Assembly (NCBI GenBank): GCA_014378525.1 | Contig: JACMNL010000064.1 | Coordinates: 1 to 34,695 of the forward strand | DNA: 34,695 bases | Direction of reading: 5' to 3' | Origin: Bacteriovorax sp. | GTDB lineage: Bacteria; Bdellovibrionota; Bacteriovoracia; Bacteriovoracales; Bacteriovoracaceae | In this document: in pieces, positions 24,634-30,270 of the stretch | Layout: each line of letters starts with the position of its first letter | How positions within the stretch are numbered: the first letter of the stretch is position 1 | Made by a program: the position numbers and the translations under genes | Notes under the pieces: model-generated | What the model was told of the DNA's origin: nothing | Seen by the model: only the letters and a program-made list of their open reading frames with translations | Databases searched by the model: none

Positions 24634-24665
24634 AAGCGGCCTTATCAAATAAGGCCGCTTTTTTT
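24634..24665 (+). terminator. Intrinsic terminator of the small secreted protein gene
   Basis: AAGCGGCCTTAT (24634-24645) pairs perfectly with ATAAGGCCGCTT (24649-24660) around a 3-base loop, followed by a run of T through 24665. A 12-bp stem, GC-rich at its heart, with a T-run is a textbook Rho-independent terminator. A preceding A-poor, T-rich stretch makes it less convincing for the opposite strand. Confidence 0.92.
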
Positions 24666-24792: not shown

Positions 24793-25959
24793 ATGCTTCG
24801 TCTTAATCAGAAATTAAAAATTGGTATTATTGGCGCAGGTCCTGCGGGAAGCATGATTGCCTACAGGCTCGCAAAGGCCGGCCATGAAGTTCATATCCTT
24901 GAAAGGAAATCTTCCGTGGAAAGAAAAGTTTGCGGAGAATATTTATGTCCCAAAGGAGTCGAACTTCTGCAGGACCTCAATCTGTTAGAAAAACTTTGCC
25001 ACAAATTTTCTCCTCTTTTCGGAATGGTGCTCGTATCACCCATGGGAGAAATAATTCCAAGTTATTTTCCACAAACACTTCGCGAAGAAAAAGGCCTGTC
25101 ACTTCATAGAAAAATATTTGATGAAAATCTTTTACAACTTGCCCTGGATTCCGGCGCTGTCTTACACTATAAAACAGTTACAAACGCTTTTCAAAAAACT
25201 GATGAAACATGGTCGGTAGTAGCAAGCGAAGAAATTTTTGAATTTAATTTCCTCATTGCTGCCGACGGAAGGCAGTCTAAAATTGGAAATCACCTTGGTC
25301 ACGTTGACAATATTTACACCACCAGAATTGCTCTCCACTGTTTCCTGCCAAGAAAAATTTCCAGAGGCCAGCGTCTGGGAGAAATGCATATTCTTCCTCA
25401 TGGTGCATACTGTGGTCTTGATCCGGTCAGTGATGATGAAGTTAATTTTTCAATTGTCTGTGATTCATTAAGGCTAAAAACTGAGAGGCCTAAGGACATC
25501 ATCAATCAGGAAATAAAAAACTCAAAACGCTTAAGTGAGATGTTCGATCCTGTGACTGATGAAACTGATATTAAAATTGTCAGCAGTTTAAAAAATAAAA
25601 ATCATTTCATTGCTGGCGATAACCTTGCTTATGTTGGTGATGCTGCAGGATTCATTGATCCGTTGACAGGCGAAGGGATTTATAATGCCATTCAATCAAG
25701 TACAATACTTGCAGACTGTCTGGAGAATTACCCTGATGTTCCGCAGGCACTTGCTGCCTATAAAAAAAGAAAAAAGCAATTGAGTTTTCAAAAAAATATT
25801 CTCAATCATTTTTTCCAGTTTTTGATCAGAAGATCTTTTCTTATCAAACTCACAGTTAAGTTCTTAAAGAAGTCGCCCGAGAGGGCCAGTAATTTTATCG
25901 GGATCATTGGAAATATTCACGATCCTGTCACCGGTTTTATAAAAATGCTAAAAGCATAA
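24793..25959 (+). CDS. FAD-dependent hydroxylase/reductase (geranylgeranyl-reductase-like), phenolic-lipid operon
   Basis: A 388-aa flavoprotein of the p-hydroxybenzoate hydroxylase / geranylgeranyl reductase superfamily. The dinucleotide motif GAGPAGS lies near 15-21, with the acidic end of the fold at HILERK near 36-41. The family CGEYLCPKG segment follows, and the second FAD motif YVGDAAGFIDPLTGEGI lies near 278-294. GGGAG precedes the ATG by 5 nt. It is 11 bases upstream of a type III PKS and in the same direction as a methyltransferase. In Streptomyces griseus the equivalent srsC gene encodes a hydroxylase that oxidises alkylresorcinol products to quinones, so the same role is the best guess here. 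Confidence 0.87.
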   Translation: MLRLNQKLKIGIIGAGPAGSMIAYRLAKAGHEVHILERKSSVERKVCGEYLCPKGVELLQDLNLLEKLCHKFSPLFGMVLVSPMGEIIPSYFPQTLREEKGLSLHRKIFDENLLQLALDSGAVLHYKTVTNAFQKTDETWSVVASEEIFEFNFLIAADGRQSKIGNHLGHVDNIYTTRIALHCFLPRKISRGQRLGEMHILPHGAYCGLDPVSDDEVNFSIVCDSLRLKTERPKDIINQEIKNSKRLSEMFDPVTDETDIKIVSSLKNKNHFIAGDNLAYVGDAAGFIDPLTGEGIYNAIQSSTILADCLENYPDVPQALAAYKKRKKQLSFQKNILNHFFQFLIRRSFLIKLTVKFLKKSPERASNFIGIIGNIHDPVTGFIKMLKA

Positions 25960-25970
25960 GAGAGGATTTT

Positions 25971-27023
25971 ATGGGTGCCATACATTCAGTAGCTACGAGC
26001 TTTCCCGAAATTTATGCTTCTCAGGAAGATATTGCAAAAGAGATTGGCAGCATCTGGCCTGACAAACAAAAACATGTTGAGCAGTTTCATTCTGCTTCAA
26101 AGGTTCAGGGAAGACATCTTTCCATTCCACTGTCTGAATATAAAAATTTAGGTGATATCAGTGACCGTTCGGCAAAATGGCTGGAGACTGCACTCAAGCT
26201 GCAGACTGAAAATATCGAAAAACTTTTAACGAAAGCAGGCCTTACTCCCCAAGATATAAATCTGATCGTTTCAACAACTGTCACGGGTCTTGCCATTCCC
26301 ACTCTTGAAGCAAGACTAATGAACAGACTTCCTTTCAGTCCTAATACAAAACGCCTGCCGATTTTTGGTCTTGGCTGTTTAGGTGGAGTCGCCGGTATCA
26401 ACCGAGTGAATGATTACCTGAAAGGACATCCTAAAGAAGCAGCATTACTTTTAGCGACTGAACTATGCACTCTCACATTTCAATTCAACGACAAAAGTGT
26501 GGCAAATCTTGTAGGTACAAGTCTTTTTGCTGATGGAGCTGCGGCCGTGTTAATGGTTGGAGACGAGCATCCGCTTTATAAAAAGTCACAGTTTGAAATT
26601 CTCACAGGTGAAAGTTTCTTTTATCCAGACACTGAAAGAATCATGGGCTGGGACATTGTTTCAACTGGATTTCAAATTGTGTTGAGTGGTGATGTTCCTA
26701 AAATTGTAGTTGAACAAGTTAAGCCGAATCTCGATAGTTTTCTTTCGCATAATAAAATTACTTCGAGTGATGTGAATTTTCTGGTTTCCCACCCTGGTGG
26801 TCCTAAAGTTCTCGACAAACTGAGTGAAGTTTCGGGAAAATCTCCGGAGGATTTCAGACATAGCTGGAATAGTCTGCAGGAAAAAGGAAATATGTCTTCA
26901 GTTTCTGTTCTCCACGTTATGGAAAAAACAATTCAGGATAACCATAAAACAAATGAGATCGGACTAATGCTCGCTATGGGTCCGGCATTTTGCTCAGAGA
27001 TGTGTCTGATAAAAAAATTATGA
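25971..27023 (+). CDS. Type III polyketide synthase (alkylresorcinol/alkylpyrone synthase-like)
   Basis: A homodimeric chalcone-synthase-fold enzyme of 350 aa that extends a fatty acyl starter with malonyl-CoA units and cyclises it to a phenolic or pyrone lipid. The catalytic triad is readable: Cys136 in FGLGCLGGVAG, His274 in VSHPGGPK and Asn307 in EKGNMSS. Length and motif spacing match bacterial SrsA/ArsB-type synthases. AGAGGA lies just before the ATG. The flavoprotein gene upstream and the methyltransferase gene, overlapping by 4 bases downstream, form the same trio seen in the srs operon. Starter chain length and ring type cannot be told from sequence. Confidence 0.93.
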   Translation: MGAIHSVATSFPEIYASQEDIAKEIGSIWPDKQKHVEQFHSASKVQGRHLSIPLSEYKNLGDISDRSAKWLETALKLQTENIEKLLTKAGLTPQDINLIVSTTVTGLAIPTLEARLMNRLPFSPNTKRLPIFGLGCLGGVAGINRVNDYLKGHPKEAALLLATELCTLTFQFNDKSVANLVGTSLFADGAAAVLMVGDEHPLYKKSQFEILTGESFFYPDTERIMGWDIVSTGFQIVLSGDVPKIVVEQVKPNLDSFLSHNKITSSDVNFLVSHPGGPKVLDKLSEVSGKSPEDFRHSWNSLQEKGNMSSVSVLHVMEKTIQDNHKTNEIGLMLAMGPAFCSEMCLIKKL

Positions 27024-28144
27024 TTTTTAAAAGTGCTCTAGCTATTAATCTGATCATATTATTTTATATCATTCAAAGAGTGATGGAATTAATTATCGGC
27101 CGTAAAAATGAAGAGTGGCTTAAAAAAAATAATGATGCTTATGAAGTGAGTTCCAAAGAAAGTTTACGAATGAAGATCTTTCATATTTCATGGTTTGTTG
27201 CCTTAATTATTGAAAGTAATTTCATCCATAATATTCAGCCTGCGAATGTGGCAGTTGCCATTCTACTGGTATTATCGATTTGTCAGATCGTTCGTTTTTA
27301 TACCATGGCAAAATTGAAACAGTTCTGGACAGTCAAAGTCCTTTCGATGAGAGAGCAGGTAATAACAACAGATGGCCTCTATAAATTTATCCGCCATCCA
27401 AATTATCTCATAGTGATTATCGAACTCCTTTTGCTTCCGCTATTATTTAAGGCCTATATTACAATGACACTGTTTTCTGTATTAAATCTTTTCGTCCTAA
27501 GCAGACGGATTCAACTTGAAGAGGATACTCTTATGAAACAGACTTCTTATCAGCAGCTTTTTTCCCACACCAGCAGACTCATTCCATTTATTTTTTCTCT
27601 GCTACTTTTTTTTGCGACAACTCTTCAGGCAAATGAAATTAACTTTCACTATAATAACTACGCTGAAGCAAAAAAATCACCTGACTTTGTGAAGTTTGAA
27701 AATACGAGTACCAAGCTTGGGATGATTACGACAGGTTTCGATGGTTATTCTAAAGACATTAAGGTTCAATATACAATTTCAGGTGAGCAACTGACTCAAC
27801 TGGAAACGTCCATCCCTGTGGCCAGTCTTGATACAGATGCGGAATCGAGAGATAAAAAAATGCACAACGATATTATGGATGCAGAAAAATTCCCGAAAAT
27901 TCTCGTCTCGCTTCCTACGCCTATAGCACTTGTACCAGGTGAATATACTGTTGATATGATTTTTACTATCAAAGATAAAAAAATTAAGAAACCAGTGAAG
28001 TATTCGATTAAAAAATCAAATGGTAATTACTCTGTCAGTGGTTCATCGACTCTGGGATTAACAGAGGCAGGTCTTCCTGATCCAAGTATTTTCATTGCAA
28101 AAGTTAAAGACACTTTCGACCTTAAATTCTCTGTTACTTTATAG
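27020..28144 (+). CDS. Fusion of an isoprenylcysteine-type methyltransferase and a YceI-like lipid-binding domain
   Basis: Residues about 1-192 are a membrane methyltransferase of the isoprenylcysteine carboxyl methyltransferase family. It has four or five transmembrane helices, the SAM-site segment GLYKFIRHPNYL near 117-128, RRIQLEEDTL, and the closing RLIP near 188. In srs-like operons (SrsB) such enzymes O-methylate phenolic lipids. Directly after RLIP come a hydrophobic segment ending LQANE (about 193-208) and a 165-residue domain resembling YceI, the periplasmic lipocalin-like polyisoprenoid-binding fold: FHYNNYAEAK, LDTDAESRDKKMHNDIMDAEKFPKI and the final beta-rich segment. I start at ATG 27020, overlapping the PKS stop as ATGA, rather than TTG 26990. 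The hydrophobic segment could be a membrane anchor or a cleaved internal signal. Confidence 0.87.
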   Translation: MIFKSALAINLIILFYIIQRVMELIIGRKNEEWLKKNNDAYEVSSKESLRMKIFHISWFVALIIESNFIHNIQPANVAVAILLVLSICQIVRFYTMAKLKQFWTVKVLSMREQVITTDGLYKFIRHPNYLIVIIELLLLPLLFKAYITMTLFSVLNLFVLSRRIQLEEDTLMKQTSYQQLFSHTSRLIPFIFSLLLFFATTLQANEINFHYNNYAEAKKSPDFVKFENTSTKLGMITTGFDGYSKDIKVQYTISGEQLTQLETSIPVASLDTDAESRDKKMHNDIMDAEKFPKILVSLPTPIALVPGEYTVDMIFTIKDKKIKKPVKYSIKKSNGNYSVSGSSTLGLTEAGLPDPSIFIAKVKDTFDLKFSVTL

Positions 28145-30170
28145 TCTCAGCCTCGTAGGCCTTCCTGTGTTCACTGGTATTATACAGTAGCGTAGGAAGG
28201 ATATAGAGGTCTACCAGAGTTCCAAACAACATGATGACAGCAAGAATGCCTCCGAACTGACGGATAGGCATAAAAGTGTTGAAAGTGAATATTCCAAAAC
28301 AAGTACAAAGTAAAAGCCCGGATCCTACAACAGGATTTAGTACTGCTCTTTTGTATTCATCAAAGTCTTTAAAGCGCACTTTTTTGGCATAAATAATATG
28401 AAAGCTTGAATCCCCCACCAGCCCGAGTGAAATGGAAAATGTCATGACTGTTGCGATGTTAATTGAAAAGCCCAGCAAGTACATCACTCCGAATGTCAGG
28501 GCCACAGGCATAAGAGTCACAAAAATAAAAATGGCATTGAGCTTTACTGACTTCAGAAAAAAAGCTGAAAAAATAAAGATTACAACAGCACTTGAAATGA
28601 AACTTGAGGTCAGGACATCAATCATCGAATTCTGGGACATCATCAGGTTATGATGAATACCACTCACCTGATATTGAATTTTTTTCGAATTAAGGTAGTC
28701 ACCCACCTTTCGATAATCCTGCATGTATTCTTTGACGTTGATTGGATTTCCCAGCACAGTCATTCTGTATTTTTTCTCCAGCGGATAACTTTCCTGCAGC
28801 GAGGATGGCAGCTGGCCCCGAAGAAGATAATAAACATCAAGACTAGTGGGCAGCGATTCATTCCCGGAGTACTCTAGATTCGCTTTTGTAACCAGAGCAT
28901 TGTTGGAAACTATATTGTAGGGCTGGGATAAGTGAAGTGACTTGAAACCGTTTTCGAGCTCCTTCATTTTTTGAATATCACCTGATTCAAATTCGTGGCC
29001 CAGGTCGATGGCAAGATCCATCACCGGCATACCTGAAACTGTTTTAGTCACACTTAGAATTTTTTCCCTGATTTTTTTATTTTTTGGAAAATATAAAGTT
29101 GCATCAGTAATAATGTCCAGGTGCTTTGGTACAAACAGTACGCTGCCTATTCCAAGGAGACTTAATAGAATAATGGCCCGGTACTTTATCGAATAATCAA
29201 AAATACCTCTGGGAAAAAAGGATTTAATGACTCTTTTTTGAGGAGCAGTGATGTAGATTTCCCAAAGGTAGTACCACAAAAAAGTGTACAGCGTGGAAAA
29301 CAACACCAGCTGAGAGGCCATGATTCCAAATTCCCTGATGACCGAAATTTCGGCCCACCCCAGACTTAAAAACCCGATATAGGTCGTAAACATCATCAAA
29401 AAAATTGGTGCCCACTTTACTTTGAAGACGGCCTTCAGGTTTTTTAGTTCTGTTAAAGAAAAATACATGTGAAAAGATAATGAGAGTGTCACGGTAAAAA
29501 CGACCAGTGGAACAATCGATGTGACCATATTCATCTGGCCATCGAAAAGTTTGAGAGTTGTCAGTGAAAAACCCGCTGAAAAAAGACAAGGCAGATAGAC
29601 AACGAGTGCATTTTTCAAATTGCCGATAAACAGAATCGAAATGATCAGTCCAAGGATGAACATTGTTGGAAACAATTTTTCCTGAATTGTAAGAGAGTAT
29701 TTATCGAGCAAGAAGTTTGTGTAAGGCAAACCTGCAAAAGAAGTCTTTTCACTACTCCAGTAGGGAGATGTTTCAACGAAAGACAGGATTTTTTTGGGAT
29801 TGTCATCGTTGTTATCCAGAATCAAAGCAGAGCTAAAGTCACCTGTTTCCAGATTCATCAGTTCATTTTTCGAAGCTTTCCTGGCCCTTTTGGTTTTTTT
29901 TAAGGACCTCTGTGTGATGATCTCGCAGTCATTGGTACACAAGCTCTCGATGGACTTCAACTCTCTATAAAACTCGTCTTTATCCTGCGTTTCCCTTTTA
30001 ATAACCAGTGAGTGTTTCTCTAAAATATCTTTCTGGAAAATCTTATACTCTTCCAGCGTTTTAGTTGTCAGAAAGATGGTCTCAGGATTTTTCTGCTGAA
30101 TATTGTGGGAATAAAACAGCGAAGCGGCCCCCAGCAGAGCAAGTATTAAAATGAAAATTTTCCTGATCAT
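28134..30170 (-). CDS. RND/MMPL-family exporter
   Basis: A 678-aa inner-membrane exporter of the RND superfamily (MMPL/hopanoid-exporter-like). A first helix (about 1-20) is followed by a periplasmic loop, then a block of about five helices (about 185-315). A seventh helix and second periplasmic domain follow, then a final block of about five helices (about 540-670) with FSISLGLVGDSSFHII, the equivalent of the G-x-x-x-D proton-relay region. The start is ATG at 30170, where AAGGA lies 6 nt upstream; an upstream in-frame ATG at 30236 lacks this. It faces the phenolic-lipid operon and overlaps the methyltransferase gene end by 11 bases. Export of those lipids or other membrane lipids is a reasonable inference. 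Confidence 0.85.
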   Translation of the reverse strand: MIRKIFILILALLGAASLFYSHNIQQKNPETIFLTTKTLEEYKIFQKDILEKHSLVIKRETQDKDEFYRELKSIESLCTNDCEIITQRSLKKTKRARKASKNELMNLETGDFSSALILDNNDDNPKKILSFVETSPYWSSEKTSFAGLPYTNFLLDKYSLTIQEKLFPTMFILGLIISILFIGNLKNALVVYLPCLFSAGFSLTTLKLFDGQMNMVTSIVPLVVFTVTLSLSFHMYFSLTELKNLKAVFKVKWAPIFLMMFTTYIGFLSLGWAEISVIREFGIMASQLVLFSTLYTFLWYYLWEIYITAPQKRVIKSFFPRGIFDYSIKYRAIILLSLLGIGSVLFVPKHLDIITDATLYFPKNKKIREKILSVTKTVSGMPVMDLAIDLGHEFESGDIQKMKELENGFKSLHLSQPYNIVSNNALVTKANLEYSGNESLPTSLDVYYLLRGQLPSSLQESYPLEKKYRMTVLGNPINVKEYMQDYRKVGDYLNSKKIQYQVSGIHHNLMMSQNSMIDVLTSSFISSAVVIFIFSAFFLKSVKLNAIFIFVTLMPVALTFGVMYLLGFSINIATVMTFSISLGLVGDSSFHIIYAKKVRFKDFDEYKRAVLNPVVGSGLLLCTCFGIFTFNTFMPIRQFGGILAVIMLFGTLVDLYILPTLLYNTSEHRKAYEAETIK

Positions 30171-30270
30171 TGCTTGTCCTTGAATTTTAAGTAACATGCT
30201 TTTCCTAATCCCGACCATTGTAATCAACCAAGGCATCTTTTTCTTCGGCGAAATTGATTCCTATTCTCAC

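Follow-up and report, generated by a model that had tools for sequence, protein, structure and literature searches.

How did a membrane methyltransferase and a YceI lipocalin come to share one open reading frame (ORF), and do they act as one protein or as two? The question is raised by a 34,695-nucleotide stretch of DNA from Bacteriovorax sp. (contig JACMNL010000064.1 of GenBank assembly GCA_014378525.1; the whole stretch is referred to here as the window), in which such an ORF lies between the genes for a type III polyketide synthase (PKS) and an RND transporter. YceI lipocalins are widespread; to our knowledge, their natural ligand is not settled and the route by which phenolic lipids leave the inner membrane is not known. 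A motif-marked YceI group whose genes stand next to those of a lipid-making synthase and an RND transporter provides a candidate ligand and makes both questions directly testable.

The earlier note on this DNA, made from the letters alone, had read the ORF as a methyltransferase joined to a YceI-like lipid carrier, with a signal-peptidase-like end at the joint, in a phenolic-lipid (srs-like) setting. The presence of ICMT and YceI parts in one ORF is confirmed and both domains are supported: the first scores above the cut-off of Pfam PF04140 and its predicted structure has the fold of Ma-ICMT, and the second scores above the cut-off of PF04264 and is predicted to form a YceI barrel, in keeping with the proposed lipid-carrier fold. 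A non-YceI fold for the C-terminal part, which the note had raised as a way in which its reading could fail, is excluded by the structure prediction together with structural alignment. The alignments, made with VIA-align 2 by re-aligning Foldseek's own top chains, gave 9–17% identity between the window domains and the YceI structures 3q34, 5ixh, 1wub and 1y0g and the Ma-ICMT structure 4a2n. The NCBIfam equivalog NF040696 scored the ICMT part at 35.9 bits (cut-off 160); as to the substrate of this enzyme, the gene setting points to a phenolic lipid. The joint forms only a 14-residue helix in the predicted structure of the fusion, and its LQA pattern supports the signal-peptidase-like end.

Table 1. 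Features of the fused ORF and its gene cluster (positions in the window)
Feature	Positions	Strand	Basis
Terminator-like hairpin (12 pairs, then T run), upstream of cluster	24634..24660	+	Pattern scan
FAD-dependent oxidoreductase, geranylgeranyl reductase / flavin monooxygenase superfamily	24793..25959	+	
Type III polyketide synthase, Cys136-His274-Asn307	25971..27023	+	Pfam
Fused ICMT-YceI ORF, 374 aa	27020..28144	+	ORF, Pfam, relatives
ICMT-type membrane methyltransferase part, residues 1-185	27020..27574	+	Pfam, predicted fold
Shine-Dalgarno-like AGAGGA ahead of internal ATG	27520..27525	+	
In-frame internal ATG (Met172), candidate second start	27533..27535	+	
Joint, residues 186-204: signal-peptide-like h-region, end LQA	27575..27631	+	
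YceI lipocalin part, residues 205-374	27632..28141	+	Pfam, predicted fold
PDPSIFIAKV, carries DPSI motif typical of PKS-associated YceI group	28076..28105	+	
RND transporter, distantly HpnN-like, convergent with fused ORF	28134..30236	-	Profile against solved RND structures

The gene cluster in turn supports the phenolic-lipid setting (Table 1). The FAD enzyme matches Pfam FAD_binding_3 (67 bits) and NCBIfam GG-red-SF (129 bits, under the cut-off of 158.8), and its profile matches solved flavin halogenases and monooxygenases; the superfamily is that of the SrsC-type flavin hydroxylase. Among 56 aligned relatives of the PKS, the triad columns hold Cys in 54, His in 54 and Asn in all 56, and DpgA is its best NCBIfam match, at 161.5 bits where the cut-off is 425. 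The PKS gene and the fused ORF overlap at an ATGA, and the fused ORF and the convergent RND gene share 11 bases (28134–28144). The RND protein scores 41.3 bits against NCBIfam HpnN (TIGR03480; cut-off 751.85). The scan that gave the upstream hairpin found five sites in all against 4.8 expected from shuffles, which makes this feature weak alone. A PKS match stands beside ICMT in 68 of the best 80 of 222 relatives' loci (named genomes). The genome of the window holds a second PKS–ICMT pair (L083, G000:C35, 13396–15104), at a contig end and with no cluster-type YceI in the fetched stretch; pairs resembling it were seen in G003 (L084) and G010 (L085).

Taken with the conserved pattern at the joint and the co-occurrence described below, the ORF, its predicted folds and the cluster are best explained, with moderate confidence on our part, by a phenolic-lipid synthesis-and-export cluster in which YceI is the periplasmic carrier and two genes have been joined in frame. 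The type III PKS would make an alkylresorcinol- or alkylpyrone-like lipid, which the FAD enzyme may reduce or oxidize and the ICMT-type enzyme would methylate at the inner membrane; the RND protein would then lift the lipid from that membrane and the YceI protein would carry it through the periplasm. Product, ligand, membrane topology and direction of transport are thus all predicted, as are cleavage and an internal start at the joint. The cluster is read in this way because isoprenoid ligands of YceI proteins and RND proteins that move lipids are known. In PMC9113575, most YceI crystal structures are reported with an isoprenoid, typically octaprenyl compounds or ubiquinone-8; by analogy, an aromatic-headed, long-tailed PKS lipid would resemble these ligands. 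In Methylococcus, an RND periplasmic domain and a periplasmic protein bind sterols, according to PMC10942540, and a title in the reference list of that paper states that HpnN is required for hopanoid localization to the outer membrane. If the proposal is true, a single gene yields two products, an enzyme of the membrane and a lipid carrier that is secreted.

Whole-genome profile searches (25, 9, 14 and up to 26 first-look candidates scored per genome) counted, in 129 genomes of the family, PKS in 48, cluster-type YceI in 45, RND in 42, the FAD enzyme in 38 and ICMT in 35. The cut-offs were our own: at least 125 bits for PKS, E 1e-15 (at least 153 bits) for YceI, at least 370 bits for RND (next 210), E 1e-40 for the FAD enzyme and E 1e-20 for ICMT. 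The PKS matches dropped were a second G127 fragment (106 bits), two G006 fragments and matches of at most 88 bits, most of which look FabH-like; G021, G162 and G163 among the dropped matches could be true PKSs. The YceI gene lies within 6 kb of a PKS gene in 38 of 45 cases and within 6 kb of an RND gene in 32 of 45, and 38 of the 55 PKS genes have a cluster-type YceI within that distance; chance proximity of YceI and PKS is about 3% by a rough hand estimate from eight YceI matches of any kind in the 3.6 Mb of the window's own genome. Over the 129 genomes all pairs of the five genes co-occur (phi 0.82 for YceI–PKS, 0.81 for YceI–RND and 0.78 for YceI–FAD enzyme), and the lowest phi is that of ICMT and YceI (0.61; 29 genomes with both).

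Within the 48 PKS genomes, YceI is linked to RND (37 with both, four with YceI only, three with RND only, four with neither; Fisher p 0.01) and to the FAD enzyme (34, seven, three and four, respectively; p 0.04), and RND is linked to the FAD enzyme (p 0.01); ICMT, present in 34 of the 48, is linked to neither of these two (p 0.21, 0.26). The p values of these six tests are uncorrected for test number, kinship and assembly gaps. Over the family, four RND genomes are without cluster YceI and seven YceI genomes without such an RND, some of the assemblies being incomplete; in G027, G058 and G165, PKS, ICMT, RND and the FAD enzyme are present and no cluster YceI was found. These cases count against the preferred reading, as do the DpgA and HpnN scores of the PKS and RND proteins, both far under their cut-offs. 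The link with the FAD enzyme would also suit an antioxidant role, in which a phenolic or quinone lipid with redox activity is kept by YceI in the periplasm to quench lipid radicals, export to the outer membrane being beside the point. Such a role has been proposed for BcnA with LcoA; the YceI-type BcnA and ubiquinone-8 (PMC9113575) speak in its favour. We regard it as quite improbable for the cluster described here: no cytochrome b561 match was found among the eight window proteins scanned, and of the 41 genomes with PKS as well as cluster YceI, 37 have the RND transporter.

YceI and ICMT are independent within the PKS genomes (29 with both, 12 with YceI only, five with ICMT only, two with neither; p 1), and a special tie of YceI to methylation is therefore unsupported. 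The two may act hand to hand, but the co-occurrence does not show it. This independence, together with the gene order YceI–PKS–ICMT in eight genomes, where YceI lies across the PKS gene from ICMT, tells against an intact tethered fusion, in which the joint would anchor the protein in the inner membrane and the YceI barrel, lying on that membrane's outer face, would receive the methylated lipid straight from the enzyme. We consider that arrangement unlikely, and return to it with the joint.

A natural split is seen in G005, which the PKS tree places as sister to the window (98/95). It has kept PKS and an ICMT that ends at SKLVPFLLIL, just inside the joint, at a contig end. The downstream stretch lacks YceI and RND and goes on with the same neighbours; upstream of PKS there is no FAD gene. 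In the genome as a whole (87% complete), neither a cluster-type YceI nor an RND of this kind was found, and the only FAD match is weak and partial (35 bits). Because PKS and ICMT are kept and the other three genes are gone, G005, read across two contigs of a genome 87% complete, points to loss of YceI, RND and the FAD enzyme as a unit, and to a methyltransferase that can be kept without YceI.

The YceI proteins of these clusters are marked by a motif, DPSI. All 24 rows of the YceI alignment have it, as do 45 of the 50 cluster-type YceI genes examined; for the five exceptions (L081, L217, L218, L220 and L221) the fetched stretch contains no PKS. The motif is absent from the seven other YceI matches of the window's genome, one of them a fragment. 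Two of the best 80 named loci (of 222 relatives), from other proteobacterial lineages, have a DPSI YceI directly ahead of PKS and ICMT: L149:872-3292, from a MAG named as a deltaproteobacterium, and L156:6345-8558, from a contig named as proteobacterial.

The earlier note had proposed looking for the domain pair in other genomes, and it was found there: counting the window's own, six genomes have it fused, and ten have it as separate, abutting genes. The full-length fusion occurs in four of the 14 genomes of the genus, that of the window included, and the other three are 48–51% identical to the window fusion. A fifth (G153) belongs to another genus of the same family and a sixth (G356), 36% identical, to another family of the phylum. 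With the fusion present in six assemblies, a sequencing or assembly error as the cause of the joint is excluded. In G356 the gene order is FAD oxidoreductase, PKS, fusion and then an MMPL-type transporter (L212:6533-8851, minus strand), which scores 170 bits with MMPL and only 92 bits with the cluster RND profile; the position seems to be kept and the subgroup swapped. Over 368 genomes of the phylum (at most nine first-look candidates per genome), the cluster-YceI profile found 52 genes at or above 143 bits, the next match scoring 55 bits, and six of the 52 lie in long open frames with an ICMT match. Among the best 80 of 222 relatives' loci (named genomes; near records of the window's genome were possibly omitted), no ORF had both ICMT and YceI matches; L144, with two separate genes, was the only locus there to match both parts. 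Because the Pfam YceI model gives no match at E 0.001 in the fusions L050:8523-9647 and L052:8680-9792, automatic annotation may overlook fusions such as these.

The four genus fusions are referred to as lineage A and the single pair G153 and G356 as lineage B. The two members of lineage B are sisters on the PKS tree (100/100) and on the ICMT tree (100/99). On the YceI tree they are joined by the separate cluster-type gene of G144 (L219:667-1239), a genome with no PKS or ICMT by the cut-offs used, the cluster of which is decayed or unassembled. In AU tests, a single clade of all six fusions was rejected on two trees, that of PKS (p 0.017) and that of YceI (p 0.0057), and kept on that of ICMT (p 0.34), G005 being held with the six on the PKS and ICMT trees; before G356 was added, the values for PKS, YceI and ICMT were 0.0017, 0.09 and 0.50. 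A single origin is thus opposed by two trees and compatible with the third. The simplest reading of these sequences would be two fusion lineages; a single fusion that was later split repeatedly is possible. Horizontal transfer is likely to lie behind lineage B, since G153 and G356 belong to different families.

The separate ICMT and YceI ORFs of the ten genomes abut closely (at one extreme they overlap by 26 bases, at the other 14 bases separate them), and the joining might accordingly be a neutral accident: a stop codon lost between neighbouring genes with function unaffected, YceI working with RND and the FAD enzyme whether joined or not. This reading overlaps the preferred one, the sole difference being that it gives the joining no role. 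The independence of YceI from ICMT among the PKS genomes and the retention of an internal start in five of six fusions (see below) suit it too. We find it rather doubtful, the fusion having persisted as the lineage A domains drifted apart to about 50% identity, and being present in two lineages.

Whichever way it arose, the joint retains the pattern of a secretion signal. An Ala lies exactly 26 residues before an S(T/S/K)K motif in all six fusions, the −3 to −1 residues being LQA, LSA, VNA, SFA, SYA and ANA (Ala at −1), and the uncharged run ahead of the predicted site is 16–18 residues long. In stand-alone cluster YceIs a site is predicted in 34 of 35, at a median of 28 residues from the motif (range 20–42); the rule is our own and crude, and gives implausible sites or runs in some of these proteins, for example a run of one. 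Conservation in lineage A is lowest at the joint (mean pairwise identity 28%, against 52% for ICMT and 47% for YceI), the pattern persisting there although the residues themselves vary. The one pair of lineage B shows equal conservation of joint and domains (41% against 41 and 42%), a point against the preferred reading.

An in-frame ATG preceded by a Shine–Dalgarno-like sequence (at least four matching bases, 3–10 bases upstream) lies ahead of the hydrophobic run in five of the six fusions, L050 having no good internal start by this rule. Such ATGs make up five of the seven in the fused tails and nine of the 160 other in-frame ATGs of the examined ICMT frames (p 3.8e-5, kinship ignored); the tails of separate ICMTs contribute none of 11 to these nine. 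With three of the five belonging to one lineage and two to the second, about two events are independent. Among first-start ORFs of the other cluster genes, taken for comparison, 77 of 162 satisfy this rule. The internal product of lineage B would begin MKKKLIPFI or MKKKRLVPF, resembling an ordinary signal peptide, and that of lineage A would have a longer, less basic n-region.

According to the preferred reading, the joint would still be the signal peptide of YceI, with the basic methyltransferase tail as its n-region; signal peptidase I would most likely cut after Ala204, so that the methyltransferase stays in the membrane and YceI is set free, and in most fusions the internal ATG would probably be a second, independent start for YceI. 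Because the secretion-signal pattern occurs in all six fusions and a candidate internal start in five, YceI is probably released rather than tethered. For tethering speak the retention of fusions in two lineages, the absence of a good internal start from L050, and the LcoA–BcnA (cytochrome b561–YceI) chimeras, which are read as tethered in PMC9113575. However, by that paper's account those chimeras have lost the signal peptide, the pattern of which the ICMT–YceI joint keeps, and the fixed position of the predicted cleavage site and the shortness of the uncharged run also count against an anchor. The reading of the earlier note thus stands as regards both domains, their setting, the signal-peptidase-like end and the lipid-carrier fold; the RND transporter, usual in these clusters, had no part in it. 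Its suggestion that one polypeptide could methylate a lipid and hand it over is unsupported as worded, the same features of the joint telling against it.

More tentatively still, and with some doubt, we propose a dedicated route from the inner to the outer membrane for type III PKS lipids, consisting of the RND protein and a DPSI YceI, throughout the family and beyond it, the carrier having twice been welded to the methyltransferase with the enzyme tail as signal peptide and a second start inside the gene. The joint would then be a natural case of the C-terminal tail of a membrane enzyme doubling as a signal peptide.

Phenolic-lipid operons of the srs/bps type are SrsA–SrsB–SrsC and BpsA–BpsB. 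A planctomycete operon encodes a methyltransferase, an FAD enzyme and a PKS that makes alkylresorcinols (PMC10896814). Both resemble the present cluster in combining a type III PKS with a methyltransferase and an FAD oxidoreductase, whereas the YceI and RND genes belong to the Bacteriovorax-family cluster; the main text of the planctomycete paper has no mention of 'MMPL' or 'RND', and nothing related was found in the open-licence literature for YceI together with type III polyketide synthase or with resorcinol. HpnN and BstA/BstB/BstC likewise place an RND-type inner-membrane protein beside lipid biosynthesis genes, Bst also with a periplasmic lipid-binding protein (PMC10942540), but the lipid and the periplasmic protein family are others, and the window RND is only weakly similar to HpnN. 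Identity to the YceI structures 3q34, 5ixh, 1wub and 1y0g is low, and the cluster YceIs carry DPSI, a motif missing from the other YceI genes of the window's genome. The claim of the earlier note that no such fusion had been described agrees with the open-licence literature, in which we found no description of an ICMT–YceI fusion; yet YceI fused to another membrane protein has been described. In most alpha-proteobacteria, according to PMC9113575, a YceI lipocalin is joined to cytochrome b561. This LcoA–BcnA protein shares with the window fusion an N-terminal inner-membrane protein and a C-terminal YceI lipocalin, encoded elsewhere by separate neighbouring genes; it differs in its N-terminal partner (cytochrome b561 rather than ICMT), in its gene cluster, and in having a linker where the signal peptide would be, whereas ICMT–YceI keeps the signal-peptide pattern and a predicted cleavage site. 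Chimeras of a membrane protein and YceI are thus already known, and ICMT as the partner is a new variant.
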